Shown one piece after another: positions 5,283-19,388 of a stretch of DNA of 64,000 nt. The notes under the pieces were generated by a model, which was given only the letters and a program-made list of their open reading frames with translations, ran no database searches and was not told the DNA's origin. Position 1 is the stretch's first letter. The number at the start of each line of letters is the position of its first letter. Made by a program: the position numbers and the translations under genes. This DNA comes from Candidatus Zixiibacteriota bacterium (GTDB lineage Bacteria; Zixibacteria; MSB-5A5; GN15; JACZUZ01): NCBI GenBank assembly GCA_024280775.1, contig JAJRPM010000004.1:327054-391053 (forward strand). Direction: 5' to 3'.

Positions 5283-6005
5283 GTGATTAGTCAATGCGCC
5301 AAAGCGGCAACAATTATGAGCGAAACAAAAAACATAGCCAGTGAATCCGAGGCGCTTGGTTCGGCAATTGCCGCATCAAGCAGTGAGTCGGTAGCTTTGG
5401 GTATTTTCTCGGGCCTGATTGCCAATGCTGAGAGTTTTCTGACCAAACGCGGTATTGAATCTCTAGTAAAACGAAACGTCTCACCGGCAAAGATTCATGA
5501 AGTTGTGTTGCAAAGTTATTTGTTTTGCGGCTTTCCTAGAATGCTCGATGCGCTATTTGACTTGGCGGCGCTTATCGCCCCCAAGGAATACTCCTCGGGT
5601 GAATCGATTGACTGCTCAAAGCTGGCGTACTCTGAGGATGAATCTAAGGCCTACGAGCTTCGGGGGCGTGAGTTGATTCGTCAGATTTACGGAAAGCGCT
5701 ATGATAAACTTGAACGAGCTATTGTCGATATGTCACCTGATGCTTTTCAATTGATGATTATGGAGGGCTATGGCAAGACTCTCTCGCGTCCGGGTTTGGA
5801 TGTTCAGGCGCGCGAGTTGGCGGTGATTGCGGCGCTAACAGTTGATAGGCGTCCGAGACAATTGCGCGCGCATCTCTTTGGAGCCAGAAATGTTGGAGTG
5901 TCCGTTGAGGATATTGTTGAATTACTAGGCGCGCTAACTACATTCACGTCTGAAGCTAATACTTCATTGGCGAATAACCTGCTTAGTGAGGTATTCTCCG
6001 AATAA
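5283..6005 (+). CDS. Carboxymuconolactone decarboxylase (CMD/AhpD-fold) family protein
   Basis: The 240-residue protein has two CMD-like helical repeats. The first, at about residues 60-100, holds HEVVLQSYLFCGFPRMLDAL. The second, at about 175-225, holds RELAVIAALTVDRRPRQLRAHLFGARNVG, which matches the CMD core. The CxxC redox pair of AhpD peroxidase-reductases is absent, so a peroxidase-reductant role is unlikely. Two starts are possible: GTG at 5283 with GAGG close upstream, or ATG at 5316 with a weak site. The stop overlaps the tamB start by one base (TAATG), so it belongs to the envelope operon. The substrate is unknown. Confidence 0.75.
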   Translation: MISQCAKAATIMSETKNIASESEALGSAIAASSSESVALGIFSGLIANAESFLTKRGIESLVKRNVSPAKIHEVVLQSYLFCGFPRMLDALFDLAALIAPKEYSSGESIDCSKLAYSEDESKAYELRGRELIRQIYGKRYDKLERAIVDMSPDAFQLMIMEGYGKTLSRPGLDVQARELAVIAALTVDRRPRQLRAHLFGARNVGVSVEDIVELLGALTTFTSEANTSLANNLLSEVFSE

Positions 6006-9000
6006 TGCGTGGCTTTCTAATAACTTTAACCAAGGTTGGCGCCTGGATAGTCTTCGCGGCTGTTATGGCTTTGGTAATTATCTTTGTTGGAGTTTTTAAT
6101 TTCGGGTTTCTTGAATTCGGTATCAACCGTCAACTCAATGAGATGGTAGGCAAGAACACACCGCTGGAAGTGAGTATCGGAACTATTGAGGGTGATTTTT
6201 TCAACACCCTGCATATTACTGATGTAAGCATACGCTACACAACTGACAGTTCATCCTATCCTATAGCAGAAATCCCATCGATTCGCGCCTCATATTCACT
6301 AGCGGATATTTGGCGAGGCCGATTCGATATAAACGTTTTGGGGATTGACTCGGCGCGTTTCACTATTCGACAGGATTCCACCGGTGAATGGCTCTTACCG
6401 AAACCCCAAAGTCCAACTACTTCTCCCGGCACAAAAATTCCTGAGTTCTCGGCAAGCCTTGTATCGCTAACCAATGCCAGCATTCGGGTCTTTGGTCGTG
6501 ATTCCACTTGGAACATTGATAGCCTGAATTTGACAGCGGGAGTAGTGTCAGCTGACGGAGCTTATGCGCTGGACTTGCGAAGTTTTGGTTTCGTCTCTGA
6601 TTTTCGCAAGACTCATTTGCGCTCTGCCTCCGGTAAGATAACTTATTCCAACAATCGCCTGGTTTTCAAAGATCTGAGTGTTGCGCTACCTACTATCGGT
6701 GTGGCTGGTGATGGTTGGATAGTCTTGCCCGATAGCGCTAGAGAGCTTAGTGGTCAGATTACCCTTGATACTCTACATGCGGACATGGAGTATCTAGGGG
6801 ATTTCTTCGGCAAGCATTTCACCGGTAAGCTGGGAGTGAATGGCTCTCTGGAACTGGGAGACTCTGAAATCTACGGAGCGCTCACGATTCAAGGCGGCTT
6901 TCAGGGACGGACTTTTGAGAGTCTGCACACTAAAATTCGATATCGAGAAAACACTCTTAGCGCTGATACAGTATATGGCGTTATTCTGGGTGGTTGCTCT
7001 GTCGCGGGTAAATTCGAATTGGATTTGGCCAATCCTGATATTGCATACCAGTTTGAAGGGGTCATTGACAGTCTCAACGTCGCCAACATCGCCAATGGAG
7101 CGATGACAACCGCAATCTCCGGTAAAGTAAAACTCGACGGAAGCGGTCTTACCGGCGCCAGTATGAAAATTCACACTGACGTAGAGCTTGGTGAGTCATT
7201 CATGGATATTTTCCATGTGCATAGCGCTAGCGGAGAGCTTGATATTTACACTGACAGTTTGCGCCTGGAGCCGGGTTTCGGTGTCAGCTATTATGAAAAC
7301 TCATTCAGCGCCAGCGGGCTGATTTTGTTTTCGGGGCCGATTGACATCAGAGGAGCTGCGGAACTTCAACGATTATCTCGCTTCGAGGGACAAACATTTA
7401 TTGAAGAATTGGGCGGAAGAGGTCAGGCCACATTTTCTCTGAACGGCACAGCAACCGACCCGGACATAAGTGGCAAATTTTATAGTGACAGTGTTTGGTT
7501 TTACCAAATGTACGCCGAGCGCGCCTGGTATGAGTTCGATGTGCAACGTTTCCTGACCCGCAGAAGCGGGAATATTAGTGTCAGGCTGGGAGCAGTTGAC
7601 GCCTGGGAGTTTCCACTGGACAGTATCAGCGCTGAAATGCGAATTGATTCGAATATGCTTTACTTTGATACGCTCACTGCGTTCAGTGGAGAAGCGCAAT
7701 TATCCACCGCCGCGACCGTTGACTATCTCGCCGAACCGCAGCCAATAAAGATGTTTGATGTCACACTGGCGTTTAGGTCTAATTCTTACCATGAGCGGGA
7801 CACCGCATTGTTGCTGTTTGACACTACAGGAATTGAGTTTGTTAAAGCTGAATTCGCAAGCTCGAGAACCCGAACAGGCGCTAACGGAAGTTATGAATCA
7901 TTCAGCTTCAGAGGTAGAGCGGGGTTTGATAATAATCTGACATTTGATCTTGATTTGAATAATATTGATCTAGCGCCCTGGATGCGACTACTTCCCAACG
8001 CCCCTGCTGTTTCCGGTCGACTTTCAGTGGCTGGCGATATGACGGCCAATGGCGATACATTGAGGTTTGACGCGGAGGGGCAAATAGATTCGCTGGTGTA
8101 TCAGGAGTTGTACATCGGAGATATAGCGTCAGATTTCCGCTATGCGGACAAGACGCTGACTATTGACACCATGTACTTGCATACTTCAGGTGGTGAGCAC
8201 AGCTTGCATGGGACTATTCCACTGGACATTCGCTTTGGCGCTGAGGCTGACACACTGTTTCCGGGGCCTCAGCGGCTCGAGGCCCACTCAAGTGAGACTT
8301 CCTATGAATTTGTAAGCTACTTCTTGCCGCAAATTGAAGACCTCTCGGGTAAACTTGAAATCGACGCGACAATTAGCGGCACGCCGCTTCACCCGGCATT
8401 CGATGGCGCTGGAAAGCTAAGTGACGGAGCGCTAAAAATATATGAATTGGAGATTCCTGCTGAGTCACTAAATGTGGCGTTCACTATGCAGGACAGGCTG
8501 ATAACCATCACCGACGGCGCTTGCAGGTTTCCTCCCAAAGTGCGTAAGAACGGCAAGAACAAGAAGTATTCGACGCAAGAATATGGATACGTGACAATCA
8601 CATCTGGTTCGTTGGAGATTCTCAGCATTGACAGCATCGATTATGACATTGATTTGGAAGCCACGAATTTCCCCTTCAGGTATACACTCGGGGCTATCAA
8701 GGGCAAAGCAAACGCAAGAATTCGGGTAGCCGGTGTGACACCTCCGAAAATTACCGGTGAAATAAATCTGATTTCCGCTCTGTATGAGGATGAGTTTTTG
8801 GAAGAAGACGCCGGTTACCTTTTGCTGACTCAATTCGAACGTCCGGATTCGTGGGATATTGATGTTAATGTTTCTATTATCTCTAATGCTGTTATGCGCA
8901 ATAGTGAATTGGACGCCGAGTTCAAGGGCACTGCGCGAGCTATTAGAACCGATGGATTGTGGTCATATCTATATAATCTGGAAGTGATTCGCGGTCGTGT

Positions 9001-9625
9001 GTTTCTAACAACCAGTTCATTTCGTTTGGATCCGGCAGGGACAGTTATCAATGACGATGTGGCAGTCAATAATCCGCTGTTGAATCTTATTGCGCGAACA
9101 AAAGTGCGTGTGCCCAACCCAAGCGCTCCGGGAGAAACTTCAACAGGCACAAGGCAGGTTGAGGCCGCAATTAGTGTCACTGGCACGCTCGACGAACCGA
9201 TAATTTCATATTATGATGACCCATCTGTGAGCGATAATGACAAAATAAATGAAGACCAACTCTATACTCTGCTGGCTTTCGGTTATCAGGTTGGCAGGGC
9301 CGACCAGAACCAAACTACCATGTTGGGCAATAGAGGCGCTGAGATGTTGGCGACTTATCTTAGCTCTAACCTGACCCGCGCAGGCGCGCGCTCTATCGGG
9401 GTGGAGACATTTGAGATTGACCCTAGCGCTGATGTTGAGCAAACCGAAGTAACGCTAGGATTGTATGTGCTTCCGGGGTTATACACTTATGGTAAATCGG
9501 ATATTGCCGCAACCGGGCAGGAAGTGGGTTTCGAGTATTACCTCGGTAAGCATTTGTTGATACAGGGTAAACGTGACGAAAACGACCAGTATTTTCTATT
9601 TCTGAATCTCGGGTGGGATTATTAA
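6005..9625 (+). CDS. tamB: TamB-like translocation and assembly module protein (DUF490/AsmA-like)
   Basis: This is a 1206-residue protein with one N-terminal membrane anchor (about residues 12-32). It then consists of very long beta-rich repeats of the AsmA/TamB type: alternating hydrophobic strands and many D-S/D-T turns. The C-terminal 250 residues resemble the DUF490 domain (DPAGTVINDDVAVNNPLLNL, then the final barrel-interacting region ending FLFLNLGWDY). TamB proteins span the periplasm and bind the Omp85 partner TamA, helping outer-membrane protein or lipid transport. The partner gene follows immediately (TAA then GTG at 9626). The start ATG overlaps the previous stop by one base. Size is normal for the family. 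Confidence 0.88.
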   Translation: MRGFLITLTKVGAWIVFAAVMALVIIFVGVFNFGFLEFGINRQLNEMVGKNTPLEVSIGTIEGDFFNTLHITDVSIRYTTDSSSYPIAEIPSIRASYSLADIWRGRFDINVLGIDSARFTIRQDSTGEWLLPKPQSPTTSPGTKIPEFSASLVSLTNASIRVFGRDSTWNIDSLNLTAGVVSADGAYALDLRSFGFVSDFRKTHLRSASGKITYSNNRLVFKDLSVALPTIGVAGDGWIVLPDSARELSGQITLDTLHADMEYLGDFFGKHFTGKLGVNGSLELGDSEIYGALTIQGGFQGRTFESLHTKIRYRENTLSADTVYGVILGGCSVAGKFELDLANPDIAYQFEGVIDSLNVANIANGAMTTAISGKVKLDGSGLTGASMKIHTDVELGESFMDIFHVHSASGELDIYTDSLRLEPGFGVSYYENSFSASGLILFSGPIDIRGAAELQRLSRFEGQTFIEELGGRGQATFSLNGTATDPDISGKFYSDSVWFYQMYAERAWYEFDVQRFLTRRSGNISVRLGAVDAWEFPLDSISAEMRIDSNMLYFDTLTAFSGEAQLSTAATVDYLAEPQPIKMFDVTLAFRSNSYHERDTALLLFDTTGIEFVKAEFASSRTRTGANGSYESFSFRGRAGFDNNLTFDLDLNNIDLAPWMRLLPNAPAVSGRLSVAGDMTANGDTLRFDAEGQIDSLVYQELYIGDIASDFRYADKTLTIDTMYLHTSGGEHSLHGTIPLDIRFGAEADTLFPGPQRLEAHSSETSYEFVSYFLPQIEDLSGKLEIDATISGTPLHPAFDGAGKLSDGALKIYELEIPAESLNVAFTMQDRLITITDGACRFPPKVRKNGKNKKYSTQEYGYVTITSGSLEILSIDSIDYDIDLEATNFPFRYTLGAIKGKANARIRVAGVTPPKITGEINLISALYEDEFLEEDAGYLLLTQFERPDSWDIDVNVSIISNAVMRNSELDAEFKGTARAIRTDGLWSYLYNLEVIRGRVFLTTSSFRLDPAGTVINDDVAVNNPLLNLIARTKVRVPNPSAPGETSTGTRQVEAAISVTGTLDEPIISYYDDPSVSDNDKINEDQLYTLLAFGYQVGRADQNQTTMLGNRGAEMLATYLSSNLTRAGARSIGVETFEIDPSADVEQTEVTLGLYVLPGLYTYGKSDIAATGQEVGFEYYLGKHLLIQGKRDENDQYFLFLNLGWDY

Positions 9626-9943
9626 GTGAGCGCAACAATAACTGCCATCATAGGGCGCTATGAAGGAATCTCGCTACGACTACTTGTGTTTGTTGCGTTG
9701 ATTTCCTGCATTGTTGTTTCTATCTCACCTTCTGCGGCAAATGCGCAATTCGATAGAGCGACACTTCGCTGGATAAACAACAAGCCCAAGATTCGCGAGA
9801 TACACATAAGCGGTAACCATTTCTTTACCAGCCCCGAGATACGCAACCGGCTTTTTAGCCATGAGTATTCATTCCTCAGCAATTTGAAAAACTCTCGCAA
9901 TGTGGTTCTTCACAGAGAAACAATTGTGCGTGACACCTCTTAA
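9626..9943 (+). CDS. tamA: TamA/Omp85-family protein, N-terminal fragment (signal peptide and first POTRA)
   Basis: This 105-residue frame starts with GTG directly after the tamB stop. It carries a signal peptide (VFVALISCIVVSISPSAANA) and the beginning of a POTRA domain (IREIHISGNHFFTSPEIRNRL). It ends at an in-frame TAA (9941-9943). The sequence beyond the TAA continues in the same frame with the rest of the POTRA (VKAMYLREGYLAVRV), so one codon separates two halves of one gene. A single CAA, GAA or AAA to TAA change, or a base-call error, would explain it. As it stands, translation yields only a short exported fragment unless the stop is read through. Confidence 0.82.
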   Translation: MSATITAIIGRYEGISLRLLVFVALISCIVVSISPSAANAQFDRATLRWINNKPKIREIHISGNHFFTSPEIRNRLFSHEYSFLSNLKNSRNVVLHRETIVRDTS

Positions 9944-9952
9944 GTAAAAGCA

Positions 9953-11587
9953 ATGTATCTTCGCGAGGGCTACTTGGCTGTCAGAGTTATGGAGTCATTC
10001 GAGATGCTGGAAGACTCCAGCGCTCGAATAAGAATTGAAGTTATCGAGGGGATTCGATTCATGCTGGGTCCGGTAGATTATTTGGGCGATATTCCAAACA
10101 ATCTCCGCAAACAGCTCGGCAATCCTACGAAACTGATGCGCCGTAAGGGGCCGGTTAATCTGTTTCACTTGCGTCGGGTTCGGAGCAACTTAAAGGAGCT
10201 ATTTGCCAATAATGGCTATCCCTTTGCCCTGATCGATTATCTTGTCGATACTGCGCAAGCAATCGGCGAACAACACTTCACGCCAATTCATTTCAACATA
10301 GTGACTGATTCACTGGTCCACTTCGGCTCGGTAGAAATTACAGGCGCAAAAGTTTTTGGCGAAGGAGTAGCCGCACGTGAATTGAAGATCAAGCCCGGAG
10401 CGCTGTATCGTAGAAAGGACATTCAGGATTCACAACGAAGGTTACTGCGATCGGGATATTTTACCACTATTCGCTTGAGAGTTAAGGACTCAAGCGAAAC
10501 CGGCTCGAAATATAATCGCCTGCGTCCTGATTTCAGCATCCGGGTAAAGGAGAAACGTCCGCAATTTGTTACGTTACGTGGCGGTGTGGCGCAGGACTCA
10601 GTGCGGGATTTGGTTTGGGAGCAATCTATCGGTTGGGGCAAGCGTAATCTATTCGGCTCCAGGCGGATTGAGCTGTCGGCCGAAGGTGTGTTTGTTCCGC
10701 ATGACGAGGTGTTACTCTCACACACTTACCGGGTGCGCTATGTAGAGCCTTGGTTTCTTCATATCCGTATGCCGCTATCTCTATCGGCAGAACTAGAACC
10801 GGGAGTAAAGTCACAATTGCAACCATTCCGTATTCAGCGCTGGCGAATTGACGCAGAAACACGTTTTGAGAAACGGCGCAAACTTCGCGCGGTTTTGGGC
10901 GCCCAGTATGAAGCGGTGAAGGTATTCGATATTGAACCTGCGGCGCTCGCGGATTTTCGTGAGCAGGAAGGAATCTCTGTGCGTCGCAAACTCTATGGAT
11001 CAATTCGACGAGATTCGCGTGATGATTTCTTTGTGCCGCATCGCGGCACAGTTACCGAAGGTAAGGTGGATTTCTTCGGCGGATTCCTCGGCGGCGACGC
11101 TAACTTTGTGCGCATCGAGGGAAGCTGGGCTAAGTTCCAGCCATTTTGGAAATCGGTCATACGCGCGACCAGAATAAAATTCGGTTTTGCCGAACCACTG
11201 AATCTTGGTGAAGAAGTACCGGCGATTGATAGATTCTTTATCGGCGGCGCCAATACTATCCGTGGTTTTTCCACTGACGAGCTGGGACCACGGTCGGATT
11301 CGGCGGATGTTTCTCGCGGTTCTGAGTTCTATTTGATCTTCAATGAGGAGTTGCGTTTCCCTATTTTCAAGAAATTCTGGGGAAGTATGTTCTTCGATGC
11401 CGGCAATGGCTGGGAGGGACTCGATGATCCGAAAATCTCTTTCAAACAAGCGGCCTATTCCTATGGAGTCGGGATACAATACCTCTCCCCCGCCGGACCG
11501 CTCAGGATTGACTATGCGCGACGAATTAGAACTCGTGGAATCCCGTTCAACGACCGCCTGCATCTCACTATCCTGTATGCCTTTTAG
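9953..11587 (+). CDS. tamA: TamA/Omp85-family outer membrane protein, main part (POTRA repeats and barrel)
   Basis: The frame is the same as the upstream fragment and is separated from it only by the TAA at 9941. It holds the end of POTRA 1 (YLREGYLAVRV), further POTRA segments to about residue 195 (FGSVEITGAKVFGEGVAARE and RSGYFTTIRLRV), then a 16-strand-type Omp85 barrel. The diagnostic loop-6 motif is present as GGANTIRGFS, and the C-terminal strand ends in LHLTILYAF. Re-initiation at ATG 9953 is possible, but the product would lack a signal peptide and could not reach the outer membrane. TamA works with TamB, which lies immediately upstream. Confidence 0.85.
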   Translation: MYLREGYLAVRVMESFEMLEDSSARIRIEVIEGIRFMLGPVDYLGDIPNNLRKQLGNPTKLMRRKGPVNLFHLRRVRSNLKELFANNGYPFALIDYLVDTAQAIGEQHFTPIHFNIVTDSLVHFGSVEITGAKVFGEGVAARELKIKPGALYRRKDIQDSQRRLLRSGYFTTIRLRVKDSSETGSKYNRLRPDFSIRVKEKRPQFVTLRGGVAQDSVRDLVWEQSIGWGKRNLFGSRRIELSAEGVFVPHDEVLLSHTYRVRYVEPWFLHIRMPLSLSAELEPGVKSQLQPFRIQRWRIDAETRFEKRRKLRAVLGAQYEAVKVFDIEPAALADFREQEGISVRRKLYGSIRRDSRDDFFVPHRGTVTEGKVDFFGGFLGGDANFVRIEGSWAKFQPFWKSVIRATRIKFGFAEPLNLGEEVPAIDRFFIGGANTIRGFSTDELGPRSDSADVSRGSEFYLIFNEELRFPIFKKFWGSMFFDAGNGWEGLDDPKISFKQAAYSYGVGIQYLSPAGPLRIDYARRIRTRGIPFNDRLHLTILYAF

Positions 11588-16841: not shown

Positions 16842-19388
16842 ATGAACAGACGAATCATGCTCATGGCAGCCTTACTCCTTATTGGCGGGACGATACTGGG
16901 CGTTCGCCAGATTATTGACACAACTCCTGACAACAAACAACTGGCTCTAAGTGAACCAGCGGAAAAATATCCTAAACCACCCGGTAAGCGCCCTAGCGAT
17001 TGGTTCTACCTGCAACGCTCATTTCCCTACGACACACTCTCACAGGAAAAACGCACCGCGAGTCTGCAATTTGCCAACGCTGAACTTGCAAAACTCAAAC
17101 TACAAAGAAACGCCTCACCTCCTCCGGTTTGGACACCGGCGGGCCCGACAAATATCCCGGGTCGCATTGTCGATGTTGAAGCAGTCGCAGGAGACATTGC
17201 TACTGTTTACGCAGGAAGCGCCGCTGGCGGAGTTTTCAAATCAGCAGATAGCGGTAAGACATGGTCACAGATATTTGACAATTATGGGAGCTACTCTGTC
17301 GGTGATATTGCTATTGACCCTAATAACTCATCTGTAATCTACGTAGGAACAGGTGAGTCTAATCCGGCTTTTGACACTTATGAGGGAGACGGGATCTACA
17401 AGTCAACTGACGGCGGAGCCACATTCACCAATGTCGGCTTGTCCGATAGCCGACGTATTGCGCGTATTGTGATCGACCCTAACAACTCTAACCGCATTTT
17501 TGTAGCAGTCGGCGGTCAACACTTTGGTGGCGGCAATGGAGCTGGCGGTGTGTATCGCTCCGATGACGGCGGCGTTAGTTGGACGAATAAACTATTTGTT
17601 TCAGATACCACTGGCTGTATTGATGTTGTCTTGTTTCCATCTACTGGTGTAGTTCTTGCGGCGATGTGGGAACGTGTGAGATTCGTTGATAATCCATCCC
17701 GACTAGGTGGAATAACTACCGGTGTTTATCGCTCCGCCGACTTTGGTGAAACATGGTCCTTGCTGACTTCAACCGAGGGACTACCCGATGCAGCGGACAC
17801 TCTCGGTAGAATCGGCCTAACTGCGGTTTCTAACGGCATAACGGCCTACGCGCTGTATGCAACGAGCAAAGGAGCATACAATGGTTTCTACAGAAGTGTC
17901 GACCAAGGGTTGACTTGGAGTCGTACTTCTGACGCTGACTTGGTCAATGCGCCATTAAACGCCAGTTGGGGCGGCGGTTGGTATTTTGGCCAGACACGAG
18001 TAGCGCCAAGTAATTCCTCGATTGTATATGCGCTCGGGTTGAATATATACCACACAAACAACTCCGGCGATCTTTGGGATTGGCGCTCTGCTGGAATTCA
18101 CGTAGACCAACATGCACTTTGGATAGACCCGGCAAATCCACAAGTAATGTATTCGGGGTGTGACGGCGGCGTAAACTTCTCATCCGATGGCGGTCTTACT
18201 TGGGAGCCTAGAATAAATCAAGCATCGACACAATTCTATGCTATCACTATTGACCCGTCAAATCCTGAACGTCTCTATGGCGGAACACAAGACAATGGAA
18301 CACTACGCACACTGACAGGTGCTACAGGCGACTGGACCAGAATCTGGGGAGGCGACGGGTTCTATGTCATAGTCGACCCTACCGATCCTGATGTAATCTA
18401 TGCTGAGAGTCAGAACGGATGGCTGGTTAAGACTATCAATGGAGCGATTACCTGGTCCTCGGCGCGAAATGGTATTGATTACAACAATGAACGTCACGCA
18501 TGGAGCACACCTATCGCGATGGACCCGAGCGACAACCTCACCCTTTACTATGGTTCAAACCTTCTCTACAAAACCACTGACGGCGCCTCCAATTGGGTCG
18601 CTATCAGCCCGGATTTAACAGATGCGCCTCATCCGCGTAGTAGTTTTGGAGTAATTACCACTATTTCTCCAGCGAAAACTGACAATCAAGTGGTGTATGT
18701 CGGCACTGATGACGGCAACGTCTGGGTTACTCAAAACGCAGGGGCGAACTGGACACAAATAGACGCAGCCCTTCCCGACCGCTGGATTACACGTGTTGCC
18801 GCTGACCCACGTCATGCGAATATCGCCTATGTCACTGTTTCAGGTTATCTATCAGGCTCTTCGTTGTCACATATTTTCCGTACTGAGGATTTTGGCGCGA
18901 CCTGGACGGATATCAGCGGTAATTTTCCGGATGCTCCGGTTAATGATATTATCCCGTCGCCGTATGACTCATTAGCGCTGCTCATAGGCACAGATATCGG
19001 GGTGTATGAAAGCGCGGACCTTGGAGCCAGCTGGACACCGCTGGGAACCGGCCTGCCGATTTTGCCGATACATGATATTGATTTACATGTGCCAACAGGT
19101 AAACTAGTTGCCGGGACTCATGGGCGCTCAATGTATTCAACATCGATCCCTGCGCCGCCAATAGGATGTTGCAATGACGCTGGCGACTACAATAATGACG
19201 GTTCATTCAATATCGCAGATGTCACAGCGGGTATCGCCCGGATTTTCAACTCCGGACCTGCGCCGGCCTGTCAAGACGAGGCTGACGCTAATGGTGATAA
19301 TTCGTTCAATATCGCAGATGTGACATATGGCATAGCCCGGATATTCAATTCGGGCCCCGCGCCATTATGCGGCTCGACTGGCTCATAG
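16842..19388 (+). CDS. Secreted sortilin/BNR-type beta-propeller protein with dockerin-like C-terminus
   Basis: The 848-residue protein starts with a signal peptide (LMAALLLIGGTILGV). About eight Asp-box/BNR motifs of the S-x-D-x-G-x-T-W type follow (SADSGKTWS, STDGGATFT, SDDGGVSWT, SADFGETWS and others). They are spread over residues 140-760, as in VPS10/sortilin-like propellers. The last 70 residues hold two calcium-loop/helix repeats (YNNDGSFNIADVTAGIARIF and ANGDNSFNIADVTYGIARIF) of the dockerin type. Such propellers bind or act on extracellular ligands, but no catalytic residues can be assigned. It is followed by a gene with a near-identical C-terminal repeat, and the two probably form one unit. 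Confidence 0.85.
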   Translation: MNRRIMLMAALLLIGGTILGVRQIIDTTPDNKQLALSEPAEKYPKPPGKRPSDWFYLQRSFPYDTLSQEKRTASLQFANAELAKLKLQRNASPPPVWTPAGPTNIPGRIVDVEAVAGDIATVYAGSAAGGVFKSADSGKTWSQIFDNYGSYSVGDIAIDPNNSSVIYVGTGESNPAFDTYEGDGIYKSTDGGATFTNVGLSDSRRIARIVIDPNNSNRIFVAVGGQHFGGGNGAGGVYRSDDGGVSWTNKLFVSDTTGCIDVVLFPSTGVVLAAMWERVRFVDNPSRLGGITTGVYRSADFGETWSLLTSTEGLPDAADTLGRIGLTAVSNGITAYALYATSKGAYNGFYRSVDQGLTWSRTSDADLVNAPLNASWGGGWYFGQTRVAPSNSSIVYALGLNIYHTNNSGDLWDWRSAGIHVDQHALWIDPANPQVMYSGCDGGVNFSSDGGLTWEPRINQASTQFYAITIDPSNPERLYGGTQDNGTLRTLTGATGDWTRIWGGDGFYVIVDPTDPDVIYAESQNGWLVKTINGAITWSSARNGIDYNNERHAWSTPIAMDPSDNLTLYYGSNLLYKTTDGASNWVAISPDLTDAPHPRSSFGVITTISPAKTDNQVVYVGTDDGNVWVTQNAGANWTQIDAALPDRWITRVAADPRHANIAYVTVSGYLSGSSLSHIFRTEDFGATWTDISGNFPDAPVNDIIPSPYDSLALLIGTDIGVYESADLGASWTPLGTGLPILPIHDIDLHVPTGKLVAGTHGRSMYSTSIPAPPIGCCNDAGDYNNDGSFNIADVTAGIARIFNSGPAPACQDEADANGDNSFNIADVTYGIARIFNSGPAPLCGSTGS

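Follow-up and report, generated by a model that had tools for sequence, protein, structure and literature searches.

In the TamAB module, TamA is distinguished by a signal peptide, POTRA domains and an Omp85 barrel, and its gene adjoins tamB. Mutants of Escherichia coli in tamA and in tamB grow, yet the function of TamB needs TamA (PMC8593681), which agrees with the expectation, voiced in the preliminary description of the present locus, that TamA is normally required together with TamB.

Selenocysteine insertion at UGA is a case in which a stop codon is decoded in frame. Dual-use UAR codes, in which in-frame UAA and UAG stand at Gln/Glu-type positions and the same codons also terminate translation, occur in protists, including Condylostoma. 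In Blastocrithidia, another such protist, UAR encodes Glu while UAA also serves as the stop (PMC12153298). In bacteria, all stop reassignments reported to date involve UGA, and screens for reassignment are known to pick up pseudogenes with in-frame stops as false positives (PMC8629427). Uncurated metagenome-assembled genomes (MAGs) also contain local assembly errors, 13 of which were reported in a single 1.1-Mb genome (PMC7111523).

The window, which denotes the whole analysed stretch of 64,000 nucleotides, belongs to a genome of 3.17 Mb in 17 contigs that is 97.5% complete. Its tamA shares the signal peptide, POTRA domains, Omp85 barrel and adjoining tamB of the TamAB module and differs in that the consensus has a stop within POTRA 1. 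A single frame at 9626-11587 on the forward strand constitutes the gene, which begins with GTG immediately after the end of tamB at 9625, contains a lone internal TAA at codon 106 in translation, and closes with a normal TAG at 11585-11587. The features of the locus are as follows:

6005..9625, forward strand: tamB, intact, 1206 aa (PF04357, 84.1 bits), the sole TamB in the genome
9626..9943, forward strand: 5' piece of tamA, with GTG start, signal-peptide-like segment and the beginning of POTRA 1, ending at the TAA (translation; hydropathy)
9785..10051, forward strand: POTRA 1, interrupted by the stop (PF07244, residues 54-142 of the joined protein)
9941..9943, forward strand: in-frame TAA, codon 106 (translation); a sense codon in all other aligned tamA
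9944..11587, forward strand: 3' piece of tamA, with the remainder of POTRA 1, a further POTRA region and the Omp85 barrel (translation, domain search)
10319..10510, forward strand: membrane-proximal POTRA (PF07244, joined residues 232-295)
10721..11533, forward strand: Omp85 beta-barrel (PF01103, joined residues 366-636, E 2.9e-46)

The stop leaves 105 aa on its 5' side and 547 codons on its 3' side, and the next in-frame ATG lies at 9953. When the two pieces are joined, POTRA 1 is matched across the stop (PF07244, E 3.7e-8), while neither piece searched separately gives a PF07244 match above the cut-off in that region. The preliminary description was therefore right in placing one in-frame TAA between two pieces in register inside the first POTRA domain, and its account of an intact tamB upstream, a signal peptide in the first piece and a barrel in the second holds as well: the signal-peptide-like stretch (residues 19-34, the hydropathy maximum) occurs exclusively in the 5' piece, and the 3' piece contains a further POTRA domain together with the barrel and has no signal peptide. 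The joined protein matches BamA and TamA structures, e.g. 4c00 and 8us1. In all, it possesses the PF01103 barrel and two PF07244 stretches beside an adjoining tamB, and lacks an uninterrupted frame with a signal peptide. An intact tamA elsewhere, which was named in that description as evidence against its interpretation, was searched for and not found in this 97.5%-complete genome, so an intact second copy is ruled out.

The closest relative, a congeneric Candidatus Zixiibacteriota MAG (JAJRPJ010000010.1, isolate Dive100_bin1.50), and further members of the order allowed the interrupted codon to be compared, as had been proposed. A strong tamA match was present in 55 of the 59 relatives searched, and all other tamA genes aligned from the order have a sense codon in the stop column, nearly always Glu, with Ala in G003 and Asn in G015; among 46 more distant relatives, at least 96% have Glu. 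This column is one of 75 that are near-invariant among those 46; the window TamA shows one conservative change at the remaining 74, and the congener shows one change in 75. The 547 codons following the TAA remain open and share 79% identity with the congener, which excludes a frame open by chance. Downstream of the stop, the two congeners are similarly close to two outgroups (318 and 305 of 544; 286 and 289 of 543), and neither acceleration nor any further lesion was seen. This full constraint rules out an old pseudogene, and relaxed constraint or additional lesions, by which a pseudogene would be recognised, are absent, although a very recent mutation would look identical. Since tamA is otherwise undecayed, its stop either arose very recently, is not real, or is read through. 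Recurrent interruption of tamA among relatives was also considered and rejected, because the stops flagged in G017 and G054 sit upstream of the start.

The same kind of lesion was encountered elsewhere in the genome. About half of it (1.63 Mb) was scanned in stretches by eye for adjacent open frames in the same register with a single stop between them, a procedure that replaced a nonsense scan based on codon bias alone, which had overlooked the stop in smc; the resulting set is not exhaustive. At least ten further single in-frame stops were found in otherwise intact conserved genes, giving at least 11 with tamA, all of them TAA or TAG:

L067:9688-13578, forward strand: smc, TAA at 10309-10311 with an ATG directly after it; Gln in 12/12 relatives
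L162:10144-11463, reverse strand: secY of the spc operon, TAA at 10726-10728; Gln in 6/6 relatives; essential gene
L171, reverse strand: murF, TAG at 9948-9950; essential gene
L165, reverse strand: GAF/PAS sensor kinase (TAA and TAG) and spermidine-synthase-like gene (TAG), stops at 9732-9734, 10644-10646 and 17366-17368, within 8 kb
L182 18786-18788 (forward), L183 6424-6426 (forward), L184 5840-5842 (reverse) and L188 9855-9857 (reverse): stops in two sensor kinases (TAA), an AAA regulator (TAG) and narG (TAG)

Matches to the curated SecY and MurF models extend through the stop, and the stops of secY, murF and smc are flanked on both sides by conserved sequence. Wherever an interrupted gene could be compared, its counterpart in the sister genome is intact, so that each such stop is private to one assembly. 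An orthologue-based scan, which is independent of inspection by eye and from which hits at gene ends or in spurious antisense frames were excluded, yielded four stops (two TAA, two TAG) in 3 of 144 orthologues together with one frameshift, and no credible in-frame TGA among the 144. The stops are clustered, with four pairs within 8 kb (P 0.003, or P 0.06 with the twice-struck gene counted once). A DUF1801-like gene (L148:2149-2564) is frameshifted relative to the congener. In a control stretch of 260 kb (G034:C4), no interrupted conserved gene was seen, the scan being noisy there at high GC. Comparison of the two tuf copies as an estimate of error was uninformative, as they differ at 80 sites that are almost all synonymous.

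The congener contains four in-frame TAA codons of its own, in genes other than those interrupted in the window genome:

L036 1157-1159, forward strand: TAA in a multihaem cytochrome
L038 12147-12149, forward strand: TAA in an isoprenylcysteine-methyltransferase-like gene
L079 2604-2606, forward strand: TAA in methylmalonyl-CoA mutase
L088 19638-19640, reverse strand: TAA in a cytochrome c gene

Further observations were made across the order. In the smc of G016 (L229), an in-frame TAA takes the place of a Glu codon of relatives, and rpoC is interrupted in two fragmented MAGs of one genus, by TAA (G023:C190:11156-15151) and by TAG (G035:C347:3422-6229). The congener rpoB (G001:C16:4277-7983) appears as two overlapping pieces in different frames, an apparent frameshift in an essential gene; an in-frame stop in rpoB was found in none of 125 genomes.

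The only two in-frame TGA codons found resemble selenocysteine sites, and the same genome encodes a tRNA-Sec (L202). The likely selenoproteins, each with a hairpin after the TGA, are:

L063 15865-15867, reverse strand: thioredoxin-like protein with the motif UTYC
L160 10952-10954, reverse strand: DUF3179 protein with the motif WUPLC

Selenocysteine thus exemplifies a stop decoded in frame in this very genome; the codon of tamA differs in being TAA rather than TGA, at a site that is Glu and not Cys in relatives, and selenocysteine insertion there is rejected.

All 18 non-selenocysteine stops in the order (11 in the window genome, 4 in the congener, 3 elsewhere) are TAA or TAG. A TGA share of about 0.24 would be expected, and its absence has a P of 0.004-0.02 for 15-18 sites, the counts being post hoc and made partly by eye. 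The residues that relatives carry at 14 stop sites are Gln (4), Glu (6), Lys (1), Ser (2) and Asp (1); Tyr, Leu and Trp, expected at about one third of random nonsense sites, occur at 0 of these 14, again in a post hoc and partly by-eye count.

SecY and MurF are indispensable to the cell, so their stops must be either absent from the living population or decoded. The most economical account of the whole class, to which tamA probably belongs, is that these stops represent single-base consensus errors or unfixed minority variants in a metagenome consensus, to which a probability of roughly one half is assigned, because two of them fall in essential single-copy genes in which dead copies are not credible. 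Apart from one nonsense base in the consensus, the tamA of the window would then be intact and under constraint, and the cell would most likely produce normal full-length TamA, acting together with TamB; we infer that the TAA base is absent from the living population. Also counted in favour are the absence of any other lesion in tamA, the frameshifts in a window-genome orthologue and in the congener rpoB, which are lesions of other kinds, the rpoC stops in fragmented MAGs, and the clustering of the stops. The published errors of uncurated MAGs (PMC7111523) are comparable in being isolated lesions in otherwise intact genes, essential ones included; the present cases differ in being clean single bases that give only TAA or TAG, which counts against an error, as messy local misassembly is not what is seen. 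The absence of TGA and of Tyr, Leu and Trp sites is likewise poorly explained by random errors. Moreover, Dive100, the source of the congener, is an Illumina-sequenced metagenome from a Southwest Indian Ridge vent (PMC9769843), and consensus substitutions should be rare in such data. A methylation-type basecalling motif was sought, and no motif common to the stops emerged.

A real and very recent nonsense mutation, by which the sampled strain lost TamA, is a possible but rather unlikely explanation. The 105-residue exported fragment and the unexported barrel fragment would both be useless, and TamB would work with BamA or be redundant with other AsmA-like proteins. Such a loss would be survivable, since E. 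coli mutants in either gene grow, tamA and tamB being individually dispensable, and BamA can serve as the partner of TamB when there is no TamA (PMC8593681). A BamA-like protein (C7:201051) and additional Omp85 proteins are encoded in the window genome, and four stops in three genes plus one frameshift per 144 orthologues amount to an ordinary pseudogene load. Against a loss stand the unrelaxed constraint after the stop, the prevalence of tamA among the relatives, and the fact that secY and murF contain such stops too, which there cannot mean loss of function. Assembly error, fresh pseudogene and readthrough, the three options originally proposed, thus all survive with unequal weight, as the stops of secY, murF and smc in the same assembly shift weight from loss of tamA to a wrong or unfixed base and turn readthrough into a genome-wide question.

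Partial decoding of UAA and UAG, probably in a Gln-like manner, would render tamA, secY, murF, smc and others full length even though UAR ends most genes; it is regarded as improbable. Its attraction lies in the restriction of gene-interrupting stops to UAR, in the Gln/Glu bias of the residues in relatives, and in the full-length, constrained and partly essential nature of the interrupted genes. However, a UUA or CUA anticodon was found in none of 43 tRNAs and tRNA-Sec (pattern scan of two genomes, ARAGORN on 1.63 Mb), the anticodon stems of the Gln and Glu tRNAs are of the ordinary 5-bp type, with no 4-bp stems found, and the release factors look normal, with the PAT/GGQ motifs of RF1 and SPF/GGQ of RF2 intact. 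About three quarters of genes terminate in TAA or TAG, without enrichment of backup stops after them, and the lack of in-frame stops in rpoB across 125 genomes and the uneven clustering of stops also speak against decoding. No sequence context is common to the 11 stops, and a programmed readthrough signal is rejected; the only hairpin noted, a weak one (z -1.8) about 50 nt 3' of the stop in tamA, is too distant, and no Rfam family was found in the 64-kb window. Still more doubtful is the wider proposition that UAA and UAG are ambiguous throughout the order, usually acting as stops and being read as Gln-like at a few dozen sites per genome, SecY and MurF included, with no cognate suppressor tRNA. 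The protist dual-use codes share the in-frame UAR at Gln/Glu-type positions and the terminating use of the same codons; here, by contrast, a cognate suppressor tRNA was not found and in-frame stops are far fewer. Among the papers listed for Zixibacteria with stop codons or the genetic code, none reports altered stop decoding in the group in its title or abstract.

Finally, termination followed by restart at the ATG after the stop, giving two cooperating polypeptides, is highly improbable despite the nearby ATG at 9953 and the ATG abutting the TAA in smc, because the 3' piece without a signal peptide would remain cytoplasmic, POTRA 1 would be severed mid-domain, and no relative shows such a split.

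Whether the stops are errors or are real and tolerated, loss of tamA should not be inferred from the present sequence. If they are single-base consensus errors, even a MAG of 17 contigs and 97% completeness can show false gene losses. If they are real and tolerated, they would represent the first natural dual-use UAA/UAG code in bacteria, for which secY and murF provide sharp single-residue tests of UAR decoding.
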